From IMG/VR virus record IMGVR_UViG_3300050821_006074, positions 1 to 26,291 of that record: DNA of 26,291 nucleotides; one strand, 5' to 3'. The position numbers and the translations under genes are program-made. Source of the DNA: a virus. The notes under the pieces were generated by a model. That model searched no databases, had not been told where the DNA came from, and saw nothing but the letters and a program-made list of their open reading frames with translations. Every line of letters starts with the position of its first letter. The first letter of the stretch is position 1. Shown piece by piece: positions 3,299 to 13,674 of this stretch.

Positions 3299-3556
3299 TT
3301 AGTATTTGTGCGGATTGAAGGTTTTACGACGTTGTGAGTCATCGCCATTCATTTGCTTGTCAACCCCATTTATTGTGTCATCAAGATCTTCTGGCATGTA
3401 AGGGCCAGTTCTTGGATAAGCTTTAATCATCACTTCTTGTGGAAGATTAGCAATAGCTGAACGATCTTCGCGGATCATTCCACCATCTTGCATTTCTTGT
3501 GTACGACGACCTTCCATGCCCTCATACATTCCATCTGAATAATGTCTTTTTGCCAT
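3299..3556 (-). CDS. small virion-operon protein, RRxQE-ANL family copy 2
   Basis: An 85-residue protein with AGGAG five bases before the ATG. It contains RRTQEMQDGGMIREDRSAIA then NLPQEVMIKAYPRTG, and later DLDDTINGVDKQM. The first block matches the gene at 2850-3077, so the two are probably diverged paralogues. It is acidic to neutral, with no signal or membrane segment. Position downstream of the portal suggests a minor structural or assembly protein; function is unknown. Confidence 0.7.
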   Translation of the reverse strand: MAKRHYSDGMYEGMEGRRTQEMQDGGMIREDRSAIANLPQEVMIKAYPRTGPYMPEDLDDTINGVDKQMNGDDSQRRKTFNPHKY

Positions 3557-3606
3557 AGTGGCTCCTAGTTACTGCAAACACCCATATGGGCTGCAAGGGT
3601 AGTCCT

Positions 3607-4116
3607 CTAACTATCTTTAGAGTTCTCGGCTATCTTACCATCATGTAGTTGTTGCTCAAAATATTTTCTTCTCTCGATAAAATTGTGGTAGGGGGAAACA
3701 CAATGTTTAATCCCACATCGTTGGTTAAGCGTATCTTTTCTCGTCAAAGGGGAATGAAATAACTCATAAGTGATTCTATGGGGCGCCCTTAAAGAAAATG
3801 ATCGTACAGCTGTAGGAGCCGGAGTCCCATTTGGTCTAAGAGACCCCGTCCAGGTCCAACATTCTGTCAAAGAATTATAATTATTTACGTGGCAACCTAT
3901 ATAACATATCTCAGAACACCACGCTCCACTTATTCCATGATTTCTAAAGATTAATTTACCACAAATAATACATGGGAATTCTTTTATTCTTCCCGATTTT
4001 CTACACCATGCAGTAAAATTTGCATTCATACATTTTCTACATATATTATGACGCATTTTATTAGCAGTTGTTAACGGGTCATTGCACTTACTGCAATTAG
4101 TTTTCTTTATTTTCAT
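3607..4116 (-). CDS. HNH-type homing endonuclease-like protein with zinc ribbons
   Basis: A 169-residue protein. I chose the ATG at 4116. N-terminal Cys pairs (CSKC, then ICRKC, CIIC and WCSEIC) suggest treble-clef or zinc-ribbon modules over residues 1-70. The second half has CWTWTGSLRPNG, then HRITYELFH, then LNQRCGIKHCVSPYHNF. This layout matches free-standing phage HNH endonucleases, where the consensus is H-x-C-x4-C-(V/I)-N-P-x-H. Here the first His is replaced by Gln (NQRC) and the Asn by Ser, so activity is uncertain. The gene is bracketed by a 20-bp exact repeat, and its last 17 codons look like the captured tail of the neighbouring gene. Confidence 0.7.
   Translation of the reverse strand: MKIKKTNCSKCNDPLTTANKMRHNICRKCMNANFTAWCRKSGRIKEFPCIICGKLIFRNHGISGAWCSEICYIGCHVNNYNSLTECWTWTGSLRPNGTPAPTAVRSFSLRAPHRITYELFHSPLTRKDTLNQRCGIKHCVSPYHNFIERRKYFEQQLHDGKIAENSKDS
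3641..3660. repeat. 20-bp direct repeat, left copy, flanking HNH gene
   Basis: Identical to 4113-4132. Read leftward, both copies encode FEQQLH in the same frame of the 200-residue gene. This copy now lies within the 3' end of the HNH ORF. Confidence 0.9.
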
Positions 4117-4699
4117 GTAGTTGTTGCTCAAACTTTTTTGCTATAAATTCTTGGAACTTCTCTGGCGTCATATCAGGGCGTTGTGCATGGACATACTGTG
4201 AACTTAGATCAACTGCACGTTCGCGTGGAGCATCTGGGTCTTCTACGAGCGCGTAAACTTGGTCAGCAGTAATAGGTTCTTGTTGTTCCCATTTTGTAAG
4301 ATATTGTTCATCAAAAGATAAAATCATATGCCATTTAGTGCTCAGTTTTTTTTTAATCACTGAGTTAAGTGAATCTTTAAGGCAATCAGAAAGTAAAAGC
4401 TTTATGAACTTCTTCTTCTCGCGTTCATGTTGTTTCTGTTCTTCTTTAGTAGTTGGTGGCGTAAATTTATATTTTCTATCTTTGTAATCTATATCAAAGC
4501 CAATATGCATAAGAGATAGATTCTTATCAAGTGTTTCGTAAACTGACTCGATGCCGTCTTGTATATAATTAACATATTCTTCAAGAAGAGAAGAGTTCCT
4601 GTCGGGAAACTTTTCAAGTAATTCTTCATCGGTGAAATTGGGTGCCAATCTTTTTCTAACTTCTGAGGGCTTAAAAAATGAGGTTGTATTATTTTCCAT
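4097..4699 (-). CDS. hypothetical protein with C-terminus replaced by HNH insertion
   Basis: A 200-residue charged, helical protein with no family I recognise. It begins MENNTTSFFKPSEVRKRLAP and has Lys/Glu-rich helices around residues 80-100 and a WEQQEPITADQVYALVEDPD stretch near 137-156. It ends FEQQLHENKEN. An alternative ending, FEQQLHDGKIAENSKDS, survives at the far end of the inserted HNH ORF in the matching frame, so the original gene was probably about six residues longer. It lies just downstream of the portal, so a virion or assembly role is likely. Confidence 0.7.
   Translation of the reverse strand: MENNTTSFFKPSEVRKRLAPNFTDEELLEKFPDRNSSLLEEYVNYIQDGIESVYETLDKNLSLMHIGFDIDYKDRKYKFTPPTTKEEQKQHEREKKKFIKLLLSDCLKDSLNSVIKKKLSTKWHMILSFDEQYLTKWEQQEPITADQVYALVEDPDAPRERAVDLSSQYVHAQRPDMTPEKFQEFIAKKFEQQLHENKEN
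4113..4132. repeat. 20-bp direct repeat, right copy, flanking HNH gene
   Basis: Identical to 3641-3660, with 472 bp between copy starts. This copy lies at the 3' end of the 200-residue gene and contains the ATG of the HNH gene. The pattern fits insertion with duplication of a short target or template segment. Confidence 0.9.
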
Positions 4700-4926: not shown

Positions 4927-6987
4927 TTAGATGGCAGCCGCCGTTGGTTGCATCGGTTGGGCTGCCGGAGTAGTGATATTTTCTTTTTCTTCTGCTACTG
5001 AGTTTGCTTTCATTGCATTCGATAATGTCAGTAACTTTTCAATATTGGCGATGTCGAGCGAATCAAGCTCCTTAAGTGCTTTGACAAGATTAAGGAAGCC
5101 GATATCTTCGTCTTTAACCGCTTGAGCCCTACGCTCTTCCGCCAGCGCCTGATTCTCTTGAACACGAGACATTCTTTCAACGCCAAGTCCTTCATCTGCA
5201 ATAGAGCGAGCTTTAGCGAGTTGGGTATCAGCTTGAATCTTCTCCATTTGGACTTGCATTTGAATTTGTTGCATCTGTGCTTGTTTCTGCTCATCTTGCT
5301 TAATAGCATCAATAAGTTCTTTCTTATTAGTGATAGTACAGGCATCAAGCAATACGGAATTTGGAACCGGAACATTGAGTTCACGTAATTGTACAAGTTG
5401 TGCAAATTGCATCTGTTTTTGCGTAGTAGTGTTGAGGCCTTCCTCAACTGCTGCCCCATATTTACCAAATGCTTTTTGATAGAACTGTGCCGTGGGTTCT
5501 GCACCTTCTAAGATCTTCTTAACTTTACCGGGCATGTAATTAGCTTGGATGATATCTAAAATGACATTACCAAGCAGTTTCTGTGCAAAGTCTAAGTTAT
5601 CAAAAAGAACTTGGAGTGTAGTAAGACCTGCGCCTTGCCTAAGCATAGATAATATACCAGCTTTATCATCAATGGCTGCACCCAATAATTCCTCGTTAAC
5701 GCCACTGATCTTCATAATTTCATCAGCAAGAATTTTTGAAAGCTCAATCATCGATGGTGGTACTTGAGCCGGATCAATGCGTTCAACATCGGTCATCAAT
5801 GCGTCATCTTTAAGTGCAAGACCACGCCCCTGTCCCGTTAAGAATATATCCTTAGGATTGACGAGCGCGTTTTCTTTGTATTTAAACCCAGAGTTTATTT
5901 GAGACTCCAAAATATCAAGCTCAATTGCTTTACGCCTATTGTAAAGATATTGCGCATCGCGAAGTCCGCGAACGACCCCACAGACTCGATAAGGCATGTA
6001 GGGCATTTGCGGATTGTAGTACGAAAACACTGGAACGAATGGATATTTATCGATACCTAATGGATTTGGCCCATGGTAGAAAACTTTATTCTCAATAACA
6101 ATAGCTAATCTGACAGTTGGAATAGATTGCTTGATAACTGAAACCGTAGGATACATTTGAAGATAAAGTTTCAATGCCTCTTCATCTTTTCCAGTCCATT
6201 CCATAGATTCACCAGTTTCAGAATCAATCAACATTCGTTGTTCCCTGAAATCTTGGTACCAGAATTCGTCATAAGTAAGAAGATTATTTACTGACCAAGA
6301 ATAGCTCTCAGGCATAAATTGAAATTTGCCATCACGGCCAGAGCCTGAATCGTGTGTCATGAGACCAAGTATCTCATCTTCATATTGTGGCAATATAGAT
6401 ATAATTTGGCGCTTATTCATGAATTGTCTGCGTAAGACACCGCGACAGTCAGAAAGATCCATCTTACGGAAATAGGGATCAATTAAGAAGCTATTGTAAT
6501 CACAGTTATCAACTTTAATATTCCCTGAAACCGGATCACTTCGAAGATCGTTCCATACATATAATAAATTCATACCAGTTACTAAAGATCCATGGAAAGA
6601 TTTAGAAATAGTTTCTCCAAGTCCTTCGTTGCGGTCTATATGCATGAATATTTTAGTGAATTGATCTGCCGTTTCTGCATCACCATTTTCTATGGGAGTA
6701 GCGATAGTGGATTTCCGGTTTCTGCGTTGATAACCAGATATCATATTTATTACGGGTTTTATTCTATTGAAATTGAATTGACGCCTGCGATTTGCGGGTA
6801 AATTACCATAAAGATCATTGAAGAATGACTGGTCTCCTGCCTCGTATCGAGTGTCTGTATCGGCTTCTTGCCAAAATGCCTGGTTAATCGTTACAGATTC
6901 GGCATAAAATGTCTGAATACGCGCAAGAATGGACTTATCATCGCTATTTTGCTGTAGATACTCAGGCCCTAATTGGGGAAATATCAT
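4927..6987 (-). CDS. phage portal protein, P22-like
   Basis: A 686-residue protein that would form the dodecameric portal ring through which DNA is packaged. I start it at the ATG at 6987 (MIFPQLGPEYLQQ) because AGGAGAG precedes it; an in-frame upstream extension of 17 codons runs into a hairpin. The N-terminal half has the pattern of P22-type portals: a helix with FYAESVTINQAFWQEADTDT, then RRQFNFNRIKPVINMISGYQ and RRNRKSTIATP, then a wing region with DYNSFLIDPYFRKMDLSDC. Residues about 560-650 are a Gln/Lys/Glu-rich coiled coil (QQIQMQVQMEKIQADTQLAK), and the tail is Ala/Pro-rich. The length suits P22-like portals (about 700). It is the first gene of the leftward virion operon. Confidence 0.88.
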   Translation of the reverse strand: MIFPQLGPEYLQQNSDDKSILARIQTFYAESVTINQAFWQEADTDTRYEAGDQSFFNDLYGNLPANRRRQFNFNRIKPVINMISGYQRRNRKSTIATPIENGDAETADQFTKIFMHIDRNEGLGETISKSFHGSLVTGMNLLYVWNDLRSDPVSGNIKVDNCDYNSFLIDPYFRKMDLSDCRGVLRRQFMNKRQIISILPQYEDEILGLMTHDSGSGRDGKFQFMPESYSWSVNNLLTYDEFWYQDFREQRMLIDSETGESMEWTGKDEEALKLYLQMYPTVSVIKQSIPTVRLAIVIENKVFYHGPNPLGIDKYPFVPVFSYYNPQMPYMPYRVCGVVRGLRDAQYLYNRRKAIELDILESQINSGFKYKENALVNPKDIFLTGQGRGLALKDDALMTDVERIDPAQVPPSMIELSKILADEIMKISGVNEELLGAAIDDKAGILSMLRQGAGLTTLQVLFDNLDFAQKLLGNVILDIIQANYMPGKVKKILEGAEPTAQFYQKAFGKYGAAVEEGLNTTTQKQMQFAQLVQLRELNVPVPNSVLLDACTITNKKELIDAIKQDEQKQAQMQQIQMQVQMEKIQADTQLAKARSIADEGLGVERMSRVQENQALAEERRAQAVKDEDIGFLNLVKALKELDSLDIANIEKLLTLSNAMKANSVAEEKENITTPAAQPMQPTAAAI

Positions 6988-7009
6988 TACTACTCTCCTG
7001 TTTTTTATA

Positions 7010-7050
7010 TCCAGGTGGGGAAAAAGGATAGGGGACAAACCCCACCTGGA
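7010..7050 (-). promoter_or_regulatory. GC-rich leader hairpin before portal
   Basis: TCCAGGTGGGG (7010-7020) and CCCCACCTGGA (7040-7050) form a perfect 11-bp stem with a 19-base loop. Read leftward, it lies between the proposed promoter and the portal ribosome site, ending about 10 bases before AGGAGAG. There is no U-tract, so it does not look like an intrinsic terminator. It may stabilise the message or modulate portal translation. Confidence 0.6.
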
Positions 7051-7153: not shown

Positions 7154-7225
7154 TTAGGTATCGCTTAACACATAAAGCACCGCCCCTTCAGGAGCGGAGA
7201 TCCGGGTTCGAGTCCTGGTGCCTAT
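7154..7225 (+). tRNA. degenerate or unusual tRNA-like gene
   Basis: A cloverleaf can be drawn. The acceptor is TTAGGTA with TGCCTAT (first pair mismatched), the D stem is GCTT with AAGC, and the T arm is perfect (CCGGG, loop TTCGAGT, CCTGG). The anticodon arm is abnormal. CCGC pairs with GCGG, but the middle gives an 8-base loop (CCTTCAGG) or needs a bulged A. Bulging the A yields anticodon TTC (Glu) with C at position 33; other registers give TCA. The D loop lacks GG and no CCA is encoded, unlike the two good tRNAs downstream. It may be a decayed tRNA-Glu or a tRNA mimic. Confidence 0.55.
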
Positions 7226-7338
7226 TAAAATGTACATCAAGGTGGGTAAGCATGTTTAATATCGAGACACGCCCTTAAAGACTGAGAGTCTCCAGCGCCT
7301 TGAATAATTTATCATTGATATGGGCGGTTAAAAATTAA
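7226..7338 (+). other. 113-bp spacer with weak tRNA-like fragments
   Basis: CAAGGTG (7238-7244) can pair with CGCCTTG (7296-7302), and a GACT-GAG-AGTC mini-hairpin lies at 7280-7290. A tRNA-Leu-like string (GAGACACGC then CTTAAAG) is present, but no anticodon or T arm can be closed. I call no gene. It may be a decayed tRNA. Confidence 0.25.
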
Positions 7339-7414
7339 CGGGAAATGGAGTAGTAGCTATCTCGCATGCCTTGGGCGCATGAGACCGCAAGTGCAAGTCT
7401 TGCTTTCCCGACCA
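7339..7414 (+). tRNA. tRNA-Pro (anticodon TGG), CCA encoded
   Basis: The acceptor CGGGAAA pairs perfectly with TTTCCCG and is followed by ACCA, so CCA is encoded. The D stem is GAG with CTC. The anticodon stem CATGC/GCATG is perfect around CTTGGGC, giving TGG at 7372-7374. The variable loop is AGACC. The T stem GCAAG/CTTGC holds the loop TGCAAGT, a variant of TTCGAGT. A C1-G72 pair with discriminator A is typical of bacterial tRNA-Pro. The D loop lacks the usual GG, as is common in phage tRNAs. Confidence 0.88.
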
Positions 7415-7438: not shown

Positions 7439-7954
7439 ATGACAATAAAATACAACCATTGGACTTTTCTTGAAGATTTAGGAGAGGATCCAAACAAGAA
7501 ATATCGTTATCTATGGAAAGTTCAATGCGACTGTGGATATATTGGCGTAAGAGTTAAGCGCGATATAATCAAAGGTAATTCAAAACAATGCAAGTCTTGT
7601 ACTTTAATATCATTATGGGCAACAAGAGTTTATAAAGAATGTAAACCAGTTAAACCGATTGAAATAGGTCATAAATTTGGAAATTGGATTATTGTTTCTA
7701 AATCCCACTTCAAAGAAGGTCACTGGGAGTGCAAATGCGATTGGGGGAAGATAAAAGTTCACCCAGAACGATATATTAGATCAGAACTTTCTTCAAAATG
7801 CCAGCAGTGCGAAACAAAAAGACGGCGCAAGATTATTATCCAGCGCAAGAGTATATCATTCGCTAAGAAATCGCCTTTAGACGAAGAAGAAGTGGAAGCG
7901 TATAATAATAAGATATCCCCCATAAATAATATAAATAGACGATACCTTAAATAA
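7439..7954 (+). CDS. double zinc-ribbon protein inside tRNA island
   Basis: A 171-residue basic protein with two copies of a Cys module. The first is WKVQCDCGYIGVRVKRDIIK then GNSKQCKSC (about 26-55). The second is WECKCDWGKIKVHPERYI then SSKCQQCE (about 96-124). The same module occurs singly in the gene at 12903-13187. Such ribbons are common in phage HNH and homing proteins as DNA-binding parts, but no HNH triad is visible here. The start is the ATG at 7439; the ribosome site is weak. The gene fits exactly between tRNA-Pro and tRNA-Glu on their strand. It may be a DNA-binding remnant of a mobile endonuclease or a regulator. Confidence 0.7.
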   Translation: MTIKYNHWTFLEDLGEDPNKKYRYLWKVQCDCGYIGVRVKRDIIKGNSKQCKSCTLISLWATRVYKECKPVKPIEIGHKFGNWIIVSKSHFKEGHWECKCDWGKIKVHPERYIRSELSSKCQQCETKRRRKIIIQRKSISFAKKSPLDEEEVEAYNNKISPINNINRRYLK

Positions 7955-7970
7955 TTATAATCTTGAGTTG

Positions 7971-8045
7971 GCTCTCGTCGTCCAGTGGTTAGGACACCAG
8001 GTTTTCAATCTGGTAATCTCAGTTCGATTCTGAGCGAGAGCACCA
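7971..8045 (+). tRNA. tRNA-Glu (anticodon TTC), CCA encoded
   Basis: A textbook cloverleaf. The acceptor GCTCTCG/CGAGAGC is followed by ACCA. The D arm has the Glu-type CAGTGGTTAGG loop. The anticodon stem CCAGG/TCTGG holds the loop TTTTCAA with anticodon TTC at 8004-8006. The T arm CTCAG/CTGAG holds TTCGATT. Its 3' end abuts the stop of the convergent 58-residue membrane gene. Confidence 0.95.
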
Positions 8046-9099: not shown

Positions 9100-9284
9100 T
9101 TAATTCCCTTGAGGTTGTCTAGCCATTTAGGATTGGTGATACATCCCCAATTTCTTGAATAATTTGGATGTCTTGCACATGTCCATCTAGGCAGTTGTTC
9201 ATCAAAATAAATGTAATATAAATATTTTGCTTTATATGATTCAACTCCACAGTCGATACATTTTTCTAGTTCAACATTATTCAT
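9096..9284 (-). CDS. zinc-ribbon-like mini-protein
   Basis: A 62-residue protein starting MNNVELEKCIDCGVESYKAK with a C-x2-C pair, later WTCARHPNY and WGCITNP. The Cys and His residues could bind one zinc. Start and stop overlap neighbours as ATGA. The junction at its start contains a 17-bp sequence repeated at the next junction upstream (9420-9436). No family is recognised. Confidence 0.6.
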   Translation of the reverse strand: MNNVELEKCIDCGVESYKAKYLYYIYFDEQLPRWTCARHPNYSRNWGCITNPKWLDNLKGIK

Positions 9285-9424
9285 TCTGGTTTCTCTATTT
9301 TATTACATTCAATACACACATAGGGTGAATCTACTTTTTCTGCTAATGCCTTCTCTCGCTCCTCAGGTGAAAGAAAATAGTTGAGCATTCTCACAAAGCA
9401 TTTATTACATCTAGAACATTTCAT
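9281..9424 (-). CDS. 47-residue zinc-ribbon-like mini-protein
   Basis: A 47-residue ORF. It opens MKCSRCNKCFVRMLNYF and later has YVCIECNKIEKPE, so two C-x2-C pairs about 30 residues apart, a classic zinc-ribbon spacing. Both ends overlap neighbours as ATGA. Its last codons (KPE) match those of the upstream DUF551-like gene, at both protein and DNA level. Confidence 0.65.
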   Translation of the reverse strand: MKCSRCNKCFVRMLNYFLSPEEREKALAEKVDSPYVCIECNKIEKPE

Positions 9425-9624
9425 TCTGGTTTCTCTGGTAATAGCATCCAATGAGTTATATCTTTACTGCAATCAAATTCTCCAAAAACAACATTATCAT
9501 AGTCTTCATCGTATTTGCATATTTCTAGTATTTTTCCATCACAGTTGCCACACATGGGCTCACCATAACCTATGAATCTTTTATTCTTTGGCGTTTTTTG
9601 ATCAACTACCGATATCCAATTCAT
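9421..9624 (-). CDS. DUF551-like protein, copy 1
   Basis: A 67-residue protein with the DUF551 pattern: N-terminal MNWISVVDQKTP, a central beta-rich part, and C-terminal ITHWMLLPEKPE, where the family usually has HWMPLPEPP. DUF551 proteins are frequent in phage accessory regions and have no established function. This copy carries an added CGNC pair. It lies directly after a second DUF551-like gene with an ATGA overlap. Confidence 0.75.
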   Translation of the reverse strand: MNWISVVDQKTPKNKRFIGYGEPMCGNCDGKILEICKYDEDYDNVVFGEFDCSKDITHWMLLPEKPE

Positions 9625-10434: not shown

Positions 10435-11808
10435 TTAATACTCCGGTAAATCTTCACGGAAGAACCCACCCTGTGGCTTATCTCCGTAAACAGCTTCTTT
10501 ATAATTCTTTTCTATCTTAGCAGCGCTCGAATAGTTTCCACAGCGTGGAAGAGCTGCGCAAAGATATCTCATAGCATCTGCACCATGCGTATATTGATCT
10601 TTCCGTGGATAACCACGATATATCCTTCTTTTCGCATCATATTCTTCTTGATAATTCTCTAAACATTTAATAAGACGCGCGCACTTCTTCTCATCTATCC
10701 ATATCTTGCCTAGACTACGTCGAACACCTTCAATTCCGTCCTCTATGCCAATCTTAACTGGCTCTGTAAACTTCACACCAAGCTCCGCATAAAGCTCGCG
10801 TCTGGACAATCCTCGAGATTCTTCTCTTTTCATAACATCATGTGGCGGAAAATGACGCTCGAATATCATTCCATCAGCTTCTTTGTTAGCTATAAACTGC
10901 GCAAAGTGGGCAATGAGCTTATCACTCGCTTCGTAATAATCAAAAATTCTTACAATATCCCCAATAACCTGAAAAAATATGATAACGCATGGATCCTTGA
11001 GGCCGAAATCCCACGCCGTATATACTTTGTGATATGGTTCCCATGGGACATTGCCGATCTGGCCCTTAAGGTACATCTTAGCGATTAATTTTGCGTAATA
11101 TGAATGTTCGTCGCCATGGTCAAAACTACACCAATACTCTTGGAGAGCTAATGACTCAGATATCTCACCAGATTCTATTTCTCTTTGTACGTCATGTGAT
11201 GATATATGTCTTGTATCATCGATAGTTAAGAACTGAACAAACCAATCGGGATTATTTCTCGCGATTTCATGAAGTTCATACATATGGTTCTTGCCACGCG
11301 GCGTACTAATGAGCATAACGATACCGTTATTGCCTTTCATGATAGGCATAGCAGCAAGTTTATACGCATTTTCATCAGACATTGCGTACTCAGAGAACAC
11401 GATCATTTTCGGGTTGGAACCAACGATTGAACGATCATAGTTGTCACTACCAACAAAGCGAATAATTGATTGGTTAACGAGGTATATCGTCATTGTATCA
11501 TTACGCATTTTGAGTATTAGTTGTGGAGGTATAAAGTCTAAGAAGCCTTCGCCAGTATTGCTCTTACCTTCCCATATAACAGAACGCGATTGGTTCTGTG
11601 TAGGAAGACAATAAAGATATAAACCAACTTCTCTTATTGCTGCTCTCACTAAAAGTGCGAATGCACAGAAATCTTTTCCACTTCGCCTCGGATTTATCAC
11701 TAGAAGCTTACGATATTTGCCGCCTTCTGACGCAATCGCTTGGCATACTGGTAGCTGATATTCTCTAGGCTTAAACTTATTGAGATGTATGGTTATTTCT
11801 GTAGACAT
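10435..11808 (-). CDS. terL: terminase large subunit
   Basis: A 457-residue packaging motor ATPase and nuclease that acts at the portal of the empty capsid. The ATPase half has an Arg-rich Walker A (NPRRSGKDF, about 39-47), a Walker B ending in catalytic Glu (MIVFSEYA, about 135-142, with Ser where Asp is usual) and a coupling motif (STPRGKNHMY, about 168-177). The RNase H-like nuclease half has WDFGLKDP (D267), a central acidic motif near FPPHD (D324) and HGADAMRY (D411). Length is normal. The ATG overlaps the upstream stop as TAATG. It lies downstream of RusA and the TerS candidate in one operon. Confidence 0.93.
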   Translation of the reverse strand: MSTEITIHLNKFKPREYQLPVCQAIASEGGKYRKLLVINPRRSGKDFCAFALLVRAAIREVGLYLYCLPTQNQSRSVIWEGKSNTGEGFLDFIPPQLILKMRNDTMTIYLVNQSIIRFVGSDNYDRSIVGSNPKMIVFSEYAMSDENAYKLAAMPIMKGNNGIVMLISTPRGKNHMYELHEIARNNPDWFVQFLTIDDTRHISSHDVQREIESGEISESLALQEYWCSFDHGDEHSYYAKLIAKMYLKGQIGNVPWEPYHKVYTAWDFGLKDPCVIIFFQVIGDIVRIFDYYEASDKLIAHFAQFIANKEADGMIFERHFPPHDVMKREESRGLSRRELYAELGVKFTEPVKIGIEDGIEGVRRSLGKIWIDEKKCARLIKCLENYQEEYDAKRRIYRGYPRKDQYTHGADAMRYLCAALPRCGNYSSAAKIEKNYKEAVYGDKPQGGFFREDLPEY

Positions 11809-12457: not shown

Positions 12458-12599
12458 TAACTATATATCCTTCCATGCAGCAGTAACAGAACTCATCTTC
12501 AAAATAATATTCTTGTTCAAATACATCTGGGAAATCTACAGGAATAGCAGGATGTGATACAGGCATTAATACCACTATCACAAAGGGGATAATGTTCAT
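12450..12599 (-). CDS. 49-residue protein with hydrophobic N-terminus
   Basis: An ORF of 49 codons starting in the AGAATGAAC repeat right after the previous stop. Residues 3-20 (IIPFVIVVLMPVSHPAIP) are hydrophobic, like a short signal or anchor. The remainder is acidic with a CYCC cluster. It overlaps the following ATG by 8 bp, consistent with coupled translation. No family is recognised. Confidence 0.5.
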   Translation of the reverse strand: MNIIPFVIVVLMPVSHPAIPVDFPDVFEQEYYFEDEFCYCCMEGYIVNG

Positions 12600-12613
12600 T
12601 CTATTCTTTCGGG
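12594..12613. repeat. 20-bp direct repeat at gene junction, left copy
   Basis: Identical to 12901-12920. It spans the end of the coiled-coil gene and the start of the 49-residue gene. Read leftward it contains a purine-rich ribosome-site-like stretch (CCCGAAAGAATAG) and ATGAAC. Confidence 0.85.
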
Positions 12614-12906
12614 ATAGTAAGTGATTTTCTCAATATTTCAATTTCTTTTTCAAGAGTTTCTATTTTTTCAGCTACATATTTAGAGACGACATCTATTTTT
12701 TTAGATACAAGCATATTCAGATCAGAAAGCACGAGGATCTTTTTCTTACTTATATCTAATACTTCGTTAATTTTAGTCGCATGTTCTTCTAATCGTTTTT
12801 CATGTTCTTCAGCTATGTCTCGTAAGCTTGAAAGCATCTGGTTCTGAAGCTTAGTCATATCCTGATCAAGATTTATTATAAGATCTAAAAAATCATTACG
12901 GTTCAT
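12601..12906 (-). CDS. coiled-coil protein, possible inserted cassette
   Basis: A 101-residue protein that is almost all helix, with strong heptad character (RDIAEEHEKRLEEHATKINE, then SKKIDVVSKYVAEKIETLEK). No Cys and no membrane segment. Its ATG overlaps the preceding stop (ATGA). It is bracketed by two copies of a 20-bp sequence (12594-12613 and 12901-12920) that each carry the AGAATGAAC stop/start junction, as if it had been duplicated or inserted at a gene junction. Confidence 0.65.
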   Translation of the reverse strand: MNRNDFLDLIINLDQDMTKLQNQMLSSLRDIAEEHEKRLEEHATKINEVLDISKKKILVLSDLNMLVSKKIDVVSKYVAEKIETLEKEIEILRKSLTIPKE

Positions 12907-12920
12907 TCTATTCTTTCGGG
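12901..12920. repeat. 20-bp direct repeat at gene junction, right copy
   Basis: Identical to 12594-12613. It spans the end of the zinc-ribbon gene and the start of the coiled-coil gene. The two copies are 307 bp apart, one gene length. Confidence 0.85.
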
Positions 12921-13187
12921 GTCAAAATTATTGAATGGGTTATTAAAATCTAAAATTCTTATCCTTAGTTTGCCACGGCGAGGAGTCATAAACTTCTCGT
13001 TACCTCTTCTTCGTTTTAGCTCCTTAATGGAGCAAGACCTGCATCGCTTGGTGAATCCTGCAACAAGATCATAAAGCCGCATTTCTTTTTGGTGCCCACA
13101 TTCGCATTGGGCTTTTATCATTCTGAAGCCTCTCTTGCGATGGGGTAACTCTTCGATAATAGTCCAGCTATAATATTTCTTTTCCAT
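12903..13187 (-). CDS. single zinc-ribbon protein
   Basis: About 94 residues from the ATG at 13187, which has AGAAGG six bases upstream (an adjacent ATG at 13190 is equally in frame). It has YYSWTIIEELPHRKRGFRMI then KAQCECGHQKEMRLYD and FTKRCRSCS, the same module as the two repeats in the gene at 7439-7954. The rest is basic (KELKRRRGNEK) with a polar tail. DNA binding is likely from the module and charge. No catalytic motif is seen. Confidence 0.65.
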   Translation of the reverse strand: MEKKYYSWTIIEELPHRKRGFRMIKAQCECGHQKEMRLYDLVAGFTKRCRSCSIKELKRRRGNEKFMTPRRGKLRIRILDFNNPFNNFDPERIE

Positions 13188-13674
13188 CATCAGCCTTCTG
13201 TGCAAATGGAGGGATTACGATGTTAATCTTAGAAGCATGTTCAGTTTCTTCTTTAGAGAGCTTAGACTCCCATTCTCTGTGTTTCTTCCAGTCTTCATGG
13301 TTCTTCTCTAAATAACGAGAGGCAAATCTCTCTTTAAGCCTATGAAACTTCTTACTTGGATCCATCAAGAGAGCACCGGTTTCTTGCTTACTCTTTATAA
13401 TAGCTACTCGTGCTTCGTAAAGAGCTGAAAACTTCTTATTTCTCTTTTCCCATCTTTTTGTATCATCTCGGGAGTAACCCCTCTCTTCGAAGAATCTGCA
13501 AATGGTTATATCATCTTTATCATTTAAAGCAGATTCGACTGAATGTTGCCCTAATTGTTCAAGCATAGTATCAGAGATTGGTTTCATTTTGAGTGTAAAA
13601 ATATCGAAACGCTCTTCAAAAAGGTTTTTTGACGCATCTGAGGCATTTAGTTTAGTATGAGTAGTCTTTGCCAT
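13168..13674 (-). CDS. putative terminase small subunit
   Basis: A 168-residue, highly charged helical protein. The centre (ITICRFFEERGYSRDDTKRW then EKRNKKFSALYEARVAIIKS) resembles the helix-turn-helix and oligomerisation helices of small terminases that recognise the packaging site. A C-terminal coiled coil (KKHREWESKLSKEETEHASK) and hydrophobic tail (INIVIPPF) also fit. It is four genes upstream of TerL in the same operon. No diagnostic motif makes this certain; another DNA-binding accessory protein is possible. Confidence 0.55.
   Translation of the reverse strand: MAKTTHTKLNASDASKNLFEERFDIFTLKMKPISDTMLEQLGQHSVESALNDKDDITICRFFEERGYSRDDTKRWEKRNKKFSALYEARVAIIKSKQETGALLMDPSKKFHRLKERFASRYLEKNHEDWKKHREWESKLSKEETEHASKINIVIPPFAQKADDGKEIL

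Follow-up and report, generated by a model that had tools for sequence, protein, structure and literature searches.

A phage gene, here called p200, appears to have been interrupted close to its 3' end by a captured piece of an HNH gene, with duplication of 20 bp at the point of entry; we regard this as the best explanation of the locus as a whole and put its probability at roughly 0.6. The window (the entire stretch of 26,291 bases that was analyzed) belongs to a virus record that encodes a P22-like portal protein (4927-7038, minus strand), TerL (10435-11808, minus strand), an ERF annealing protein and a RusA resolvase. The 200-residue p200 (4097-4699, minus strand), identified from the ORF list and from a homologue in two related contigs, ends in FEQQLH-ENKEN and is followed by a chimeric ORF of 169 residues (3607-4116, minus strand), which consists of an HNH fragment, a second FEQQLH and the tail DGKIAENSKDS.

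The arrangement is built around a direct repeat, TCATGTAGTTGTTGCTCAAA, which is exact at 4113-4132 (left copy, minus strand) and 3641-3660 (right copy, minus strand) and, when extended, covers 27 nt at 93%. On the minus strand, both copies read TTTGAGCAACAACTACATGA and encode FEQQLH in the frame of p200, precisely as the initial annotation had described; the stop of p200 after ENKEN, the DGKIAENSKDS end of the HNH ORF (RRKY-FEQQLH-DGKIAENSKDS) and the origin of the HNH start codon (ATG, 4116-4114) within the left copy were likewise borne out, so that the two ORFs overlap by 20 bp. When the flanks are joined at the repeat, a single open frame ending ...EFIAKKFEQQLHDGKIAENSKDS and a stop codon results. 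When the window was simulated 60 times with a third-order Markov model, direct repeats of at least 17 bp within 2.5 kb never arose, whereas the window itself contains three, two of them 20 bp long. These observations bear on the weakest alternative, an extremely improbable one, namely that two unrelated peptide ends share FEQQLH by chance or constraint: the shortness of the motif is all that speaks for it, whereas the identity extends to all 20 nucleotides, in the same frame and at both ends of one ORF, which the simulations never reached.

The unique part of the insert (3661-4112, minus strand), delineated by its match to phrog_826 and by comparison with family members, encodes two N-terminal zinc knuckles and a degenerate HNH domain. 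Nothing is encoded in the insert besides the HNH ORF, neither a transposase nor an integrase, and we found no terminal inverted repeats at its ends and no foreign base composition (36.1% GC, against 35.6% in p200). As in transposon-like insertions, a direct repeat of the target sequence is present at both ends. An integrase-type element would restore the 3' end of its target, whereas p200 is left without its last 11 residues; on this point the initial annotation, which held that the duplication restores the end of the target gene, has to be corrected, because the approximately 11 lost residues now end the HNH protein.

To shed light on the state of the locus before the insertion, we compared the window with 80 loci fetched via the portal protein; IMG/VR contigs of uncultured viruses came closest. 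One of these (L006, 9,386 bp) is 100% identical to the window over the overlap, this region included, which argues against misassembly, although, being identical, it does not represent an independent lineage. In two other, near-identical contigs (L009 and L010; portal 77% identical to that of the window), p200 is present and the HNH sequence is absent, which is the pattern of presence in one phage and absence at the same site in relatives that is typical of homing genes. In these contigs, p200 lies between the portal gene and a conserved 85-aa gene, as in the window, and is 31% identical to the window protein over residues 39-197. It ends ...QDDSMSGENSSS and a stop, directly followed by GTAGTTAGAGG..., and this stop is the same TAG, belonging to a leader element, that terminates the HNH ORF of the window (...DGKIAENSKDS, stop, GATAGTTAGAGG...). 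Thus, the HNH-free relatives that the initial annotation had proposed to look for do exist and share the frame, the stop and the leader, but the literal uninterrupted ending FEQQLH-DGKIAENSKDS was not found. HNH-free relatives that nevertheless end in ENKEN, which would have spoken against the insertion, were sought as well and did not turn up: the terminal residues in L009 and L010 are GENSSS.

The segment 3607-3640 (minus strand), now the tail of the HNH protein (DGKIAENSKDS and the stop), is the presumed original 3' end of p200, given the shared stop and the likeness to the L010 tail. The 45 nt upstream of the leader in the window have their best match in L010/L009 among the 59 places tested (score 14 against a mean of 7.3, sd 1.9; 28 of 5000 shuffles, p ~0.006), and the p200 sequence around the left copy, EFIAKKFEQQLH, resembles EFINKKYDVPVS of L010 (shuffle p=0.009). 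The CTCTA part of the tail match also stands upstream of the leader at a few unrelated loci. At the protein level, DGKIAENSKDS does not clearly resemble L010 (p=0.33) more than the native HNH continuation in another relative (L255; p=0.07). The sequence homology of the tail to L010 hence appears modest and, taken on its own, would not be strong evidence. In addition, p200 of L009/L010 has approximately 20 more residues before the tail than the window protein. Homologues of p200 located upstream of the portal gene in other phages stop before the tail, so the part that received the insert is dispensable. A profile search for further relatives of p200 returned only three contigs, all already found, and there was no match among annotated phages or in the 20 family records searched; the predicted model of p200 has a pLDDT of 63. 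Altogether, the proposal of the initial annotation that p200 received an insertion close to its 3' end, with 20 bp duplicated, is mostly supported, through the HNH-free contigs, with the reservation that these relatives are distant and the similarity of the tail is modest.

The HNH ORF matches PHROG 826 (phrog_826 HNH, 2.8e-10), and members of this family, or parts of them, were detected in 12 of the 69 related records searched (3 of 20 and 9 of 49). The full architecture, represented in L254 and L255, comprises two zinc knuckles, the HNH domain and a helix-turn-helix (named by eye) ending KRRIWKH; in these two relatives, the gene occupies another genome position, after a gene of 355-412 aa. 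The C-terminal helix-turn-helix is absent from the window protein. The zinc ligands C86, C134, C139 and H144, conserved in 8 of 8 family copies and in 81 of 81 other homologues, are kept, but the catalytic general-base histidine is replaced by Gln132. This substitution confirms the annotation of NQRC instead of H-x-C; the histidine is present in all 8 family copies compared, which include the nearly identical L256 and L261, and in 81 of 81 HNH_3 homologues, a set found partly through that very motif. The asparagine of the following helix, a metal ligand that is conserved in the family (...GTTQDN...), has no clear counterpart in the window, where the helix reads RRKYFEQQLH or, under an alternative alignment, includes AENS.

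Structure prediction had been suggested as a way to see whether the active site survives. The model (pLDDT 68.5, confident over residues 91-150) retains two strands and a helix (152-158), the latter formed mostly by the repeat-encoded FEQQLH; the position of the general base is occupied by Gln132. A fold search with this model yielded weak matches only, to the MH1 domains of NFI and SMAD and to I-PpoI (best E=0.19), and I-PpoI was also the only solved sequence relative found (E=0.08). The window protein shares the zinc-binding pattern C..HxC(4)C..PxH with His-Me endonucleases of the I-PpoI/HNH_3 type and differs from I-PpoI in having Gln132 at the equivalent of His98. Given the loss of both the general-base histidine and the C-terminal DNA-binding helix-turn-helix, the HNH protein is, judging from its sequence, most likely a dead remnant. 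The I-PpoI mutants H98A and H98Q have weak residual activity only (PMC11325842), so some residual activity is conceivable here too; homing, however, is unlikely because the helix-turn-helix has been lost and no asparagine of the helix can be clearly assigned.

In the reconstruction that we favor, the starting point would be an uninterrupted p200 ending ...EFIAKKFEQQLHDGKIAENSKDS. Into the non-conserved tail of p200, 34 bp before its end, a fragment of an HNH gene from a family resident in related phages would have been inserted, and the 20 bp at the site of entry would have been duplicated. At the left copy, p200 would then extend into the insert for a few codons before stopping at ENKEN, and the HNH start codon would overlap the end of p200, so that translation of the HNH ORF is probably coupled, like that of T4 homing genes that overlap the upstream gene; at the right copy, the HNH frame would continue into the old tail of p200 and its stop codon. 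Capture by break repair or short-homology recombination seems preferable to ordinary homing because the truncation of the piece coincides exactly with the repeat and HNH genes elsewhere leave no long repeats; the ERF annealing protein and RusA encoded by the phage can be cited in support of such a mechanism. Since the gene is truncated and probably dead and its family is resident in these phages, it need not have entered by its own homing. If this reconstruction is correct, a close HNH-free allele of p200 should read FEQQLHDGKIAENSKDS in one piece, and a close full-length HNH homologue should be without FEQQLHDGKIAENS as its own continuation.

The most serious alternative, although we consider it unlikely, is ordinary homing followed by decay, in which an intact HNH enzyme nicked the two strands 20 bp apart, fill-in duplicated the 20 bp, and the helix-turn-helix and the histidine were lost later. 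The family is indeed mobile, as indicated by its scattered presence in the related records and by its other genome position where this was compared, and in T4, HNH homing enzymes nick DNA and free-standing homing genes insert in a transposition-like manner or overlap the upstream gene (PMC2988022). Against such a history, the longest exact flanking repeat is 9 bp at the 8 family copies and 11 bp at 74 HNH_3 genes of other phages; HNH genes do not as a rule have long repeats beside them. Furthermore, decay would have had to remove the C-terminus and fuse the remainder precisely to the repeat copy at which the truncation is found.

More doubtful still is the possibility that p200 and the HNH gene already shared the 20-bp stretch, which served as a recombination joint, with GKIAENSKDS being native HNH sequence. 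The tail can be aligned with the native GTTQDNKKDQ (the p=0.07 given above), but this explanation requires twenty identical bases in unrelated genes beforehand, does not account for the left copy abutting the HNH start, and is at odds with the coincidence of the HNH stop in the window with the p200 stop of L010.

The insertion of Aeh1 mobE in nrdA was reportedly described by Friedrich et al. in 2007. Known free-standing homing endonuclease genes include segC, segF, mobA and mobC of T4, and mobE of Aeh1 is inserted in nrdA (PMC2988022). The window resembles these systems in that a homing-type gene lies in or beside a phage gene, with its start overlapping the upstream ORF by approximately 20 bp, and in the transposition-like insertion into a gene; unlike them, it has a 20-bp direct repeat flanking the insert, a C-terminus derived from the old end of the target, and no general base. 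Neither 'duplicat-' nor 'direct repeat' occurs in the main text of PMC2988022. In the HNH-AP2 genes of the Xanthomonas phages Xp10, OP1 and Xop411, stages of truncation after insertion are seen, as in the window, but no conserved flanking sequences were found, in contrast to the 20-bp repeat described here (PMC2248197). In the first 50 kb of T4, segF, segA and mobB have no clear flanking repeat. T4 mobC, whose start shares 21 of 24 bases with that of nrdG, was considered as a second example and dropped, given that the shared stretch looks like the MNYxxIY motif, which we take to be the native start of Mob proteins.

Two further duplicated junctions, around non-nuclease genes, show the same repeat architecture within the window. 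A second exact 20-bp repeat (12594-12613 and 12901-12920) encloses a 101-aa coiled-coil-like ORF (12601-12906, minus strand), and a 17-bp repeat (9280-9296 and 9420-9436) encloses a 56-aa zinc-knuckle ORF (9281-9451, minus strand); in both cases, the repeat covers the junction at which one gene ends and the following one begins. In a related locus, the last 57 bp of TerL (EAVLGEESSIPYIFRHRQ, stop) recur, apart from a few changes, at the end of an inserted 101-aa ORF that is DUF551-like by eye (L049:1736-2100); the final 19 residues of this ORF duplicate the C-terminus of the terminase encoded upstream of it. In a high-GC phage (L125), a 58-bp repeat encloses an unrelated gene adjoining an HNH gene. 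Across 74 family loci, 3'-end matches scoring at least 20 were found in 7 of 857 adjacent gene pairs versus 0 of 1835 non-adjacent pairs (p=3e-4), compared with 0 of 497 and 1 of 642 in two control sets. The difference is 5 versus 0 (p=0.003) after removal of tandem paralogues (two pairs in L168, L014, L007) and 3 versus 0 (p=0.03) when the window is left out as well. This enrichment, from few cases, suggests that gene acquisition with duplicated junctions is a more widespread process, but the counts are small and the hypothesis came from the same data, so we treat it as a lead rather than a result. It is possible, albeit doubtful, that genes of any kind are gained in this phage group by insertion at gene junctions, each insertion duplicating the last 17-60 bp of the upstream gene, stop and ribosome-binding site included; the incoming gene and the downstream gene that it displaces would then each retain a translation start. 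We entertain just as tentatively the corollary that the HNH case is one of several, along with the terminase tail and the two other junctions in the window. Among the papers searched, none described duplicated junctions where phages have gained genes, which does not prove that no such account exists.

The interval between the portal gene and the 85-aa gene contains other extra genes in relatives, by eye a homing-type nuclease-like ORF (L059:8106-8612) and a DNA methylase (L080:6139-6879), and is thus a hot spot of gene gain. Ahead of the 85-aa gene lies a conserved leader RNA that the insertion left intact (3554-3615, minus strand; GUAGUUAGAGG..AACCUUGC..GCAGUUUCUAC..GGAGCC..AUG), supported by covariation and by a covariance model and also present in relatives, e.g., L058:7637-7697. 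The leader is predicted to form a three-way junction, with compensatory changes in 3 of 3 stems, 96% standard pair cells and a covariation of 0.314 versus 0.105 in shuffled alignments (0 of 500). The covariance model gave 70 matches in 77 family sources, about one per locus, and 0 in 32 control loci; a comparison with Rfam gave no match, and the leader is possibly a new phage RNA family by these sequence comparisons.

Two short ORFs with zinc knuckles, similar to a portion of phrog_374 HNH proteins, are present at 7439-7954 (plus strand), between tRNA genes for Pro (7339-7414) and Glu (7971-8045), and at 12903-13205 (minus strand); an additional tRNA match from Rfam lies at 7154-7226. A search for relatives with the scaffold-like 330-aa gene produced no match. 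The portal protein has four matches in bacterial and archaeal genomes, all within MAGs, and two of the four (L167 and L170) are in MAGs named Chlamydiia and Parachlamydia. As a pointer to the host, such labels are weak evidence, depending as they do on the binning of a phage contig; tailed phages of Chlamydiae, if true, would be notable.

The window is a clear example of phage gene insertion and fusion rather than a new machine. The leader RNA is perhaps of more interest than the HNH insertion, which provides a readable record, from uncultured phages with a P22-like portal, of a mobile nuclease gene inserting into a coding sequence, taking over a start as well as a tail, and degenerating. Gene gains in phages are usually visible only as presence or absence; if junction duplication holds more widely, it would offer a sequence signature for dating and polarizing them.
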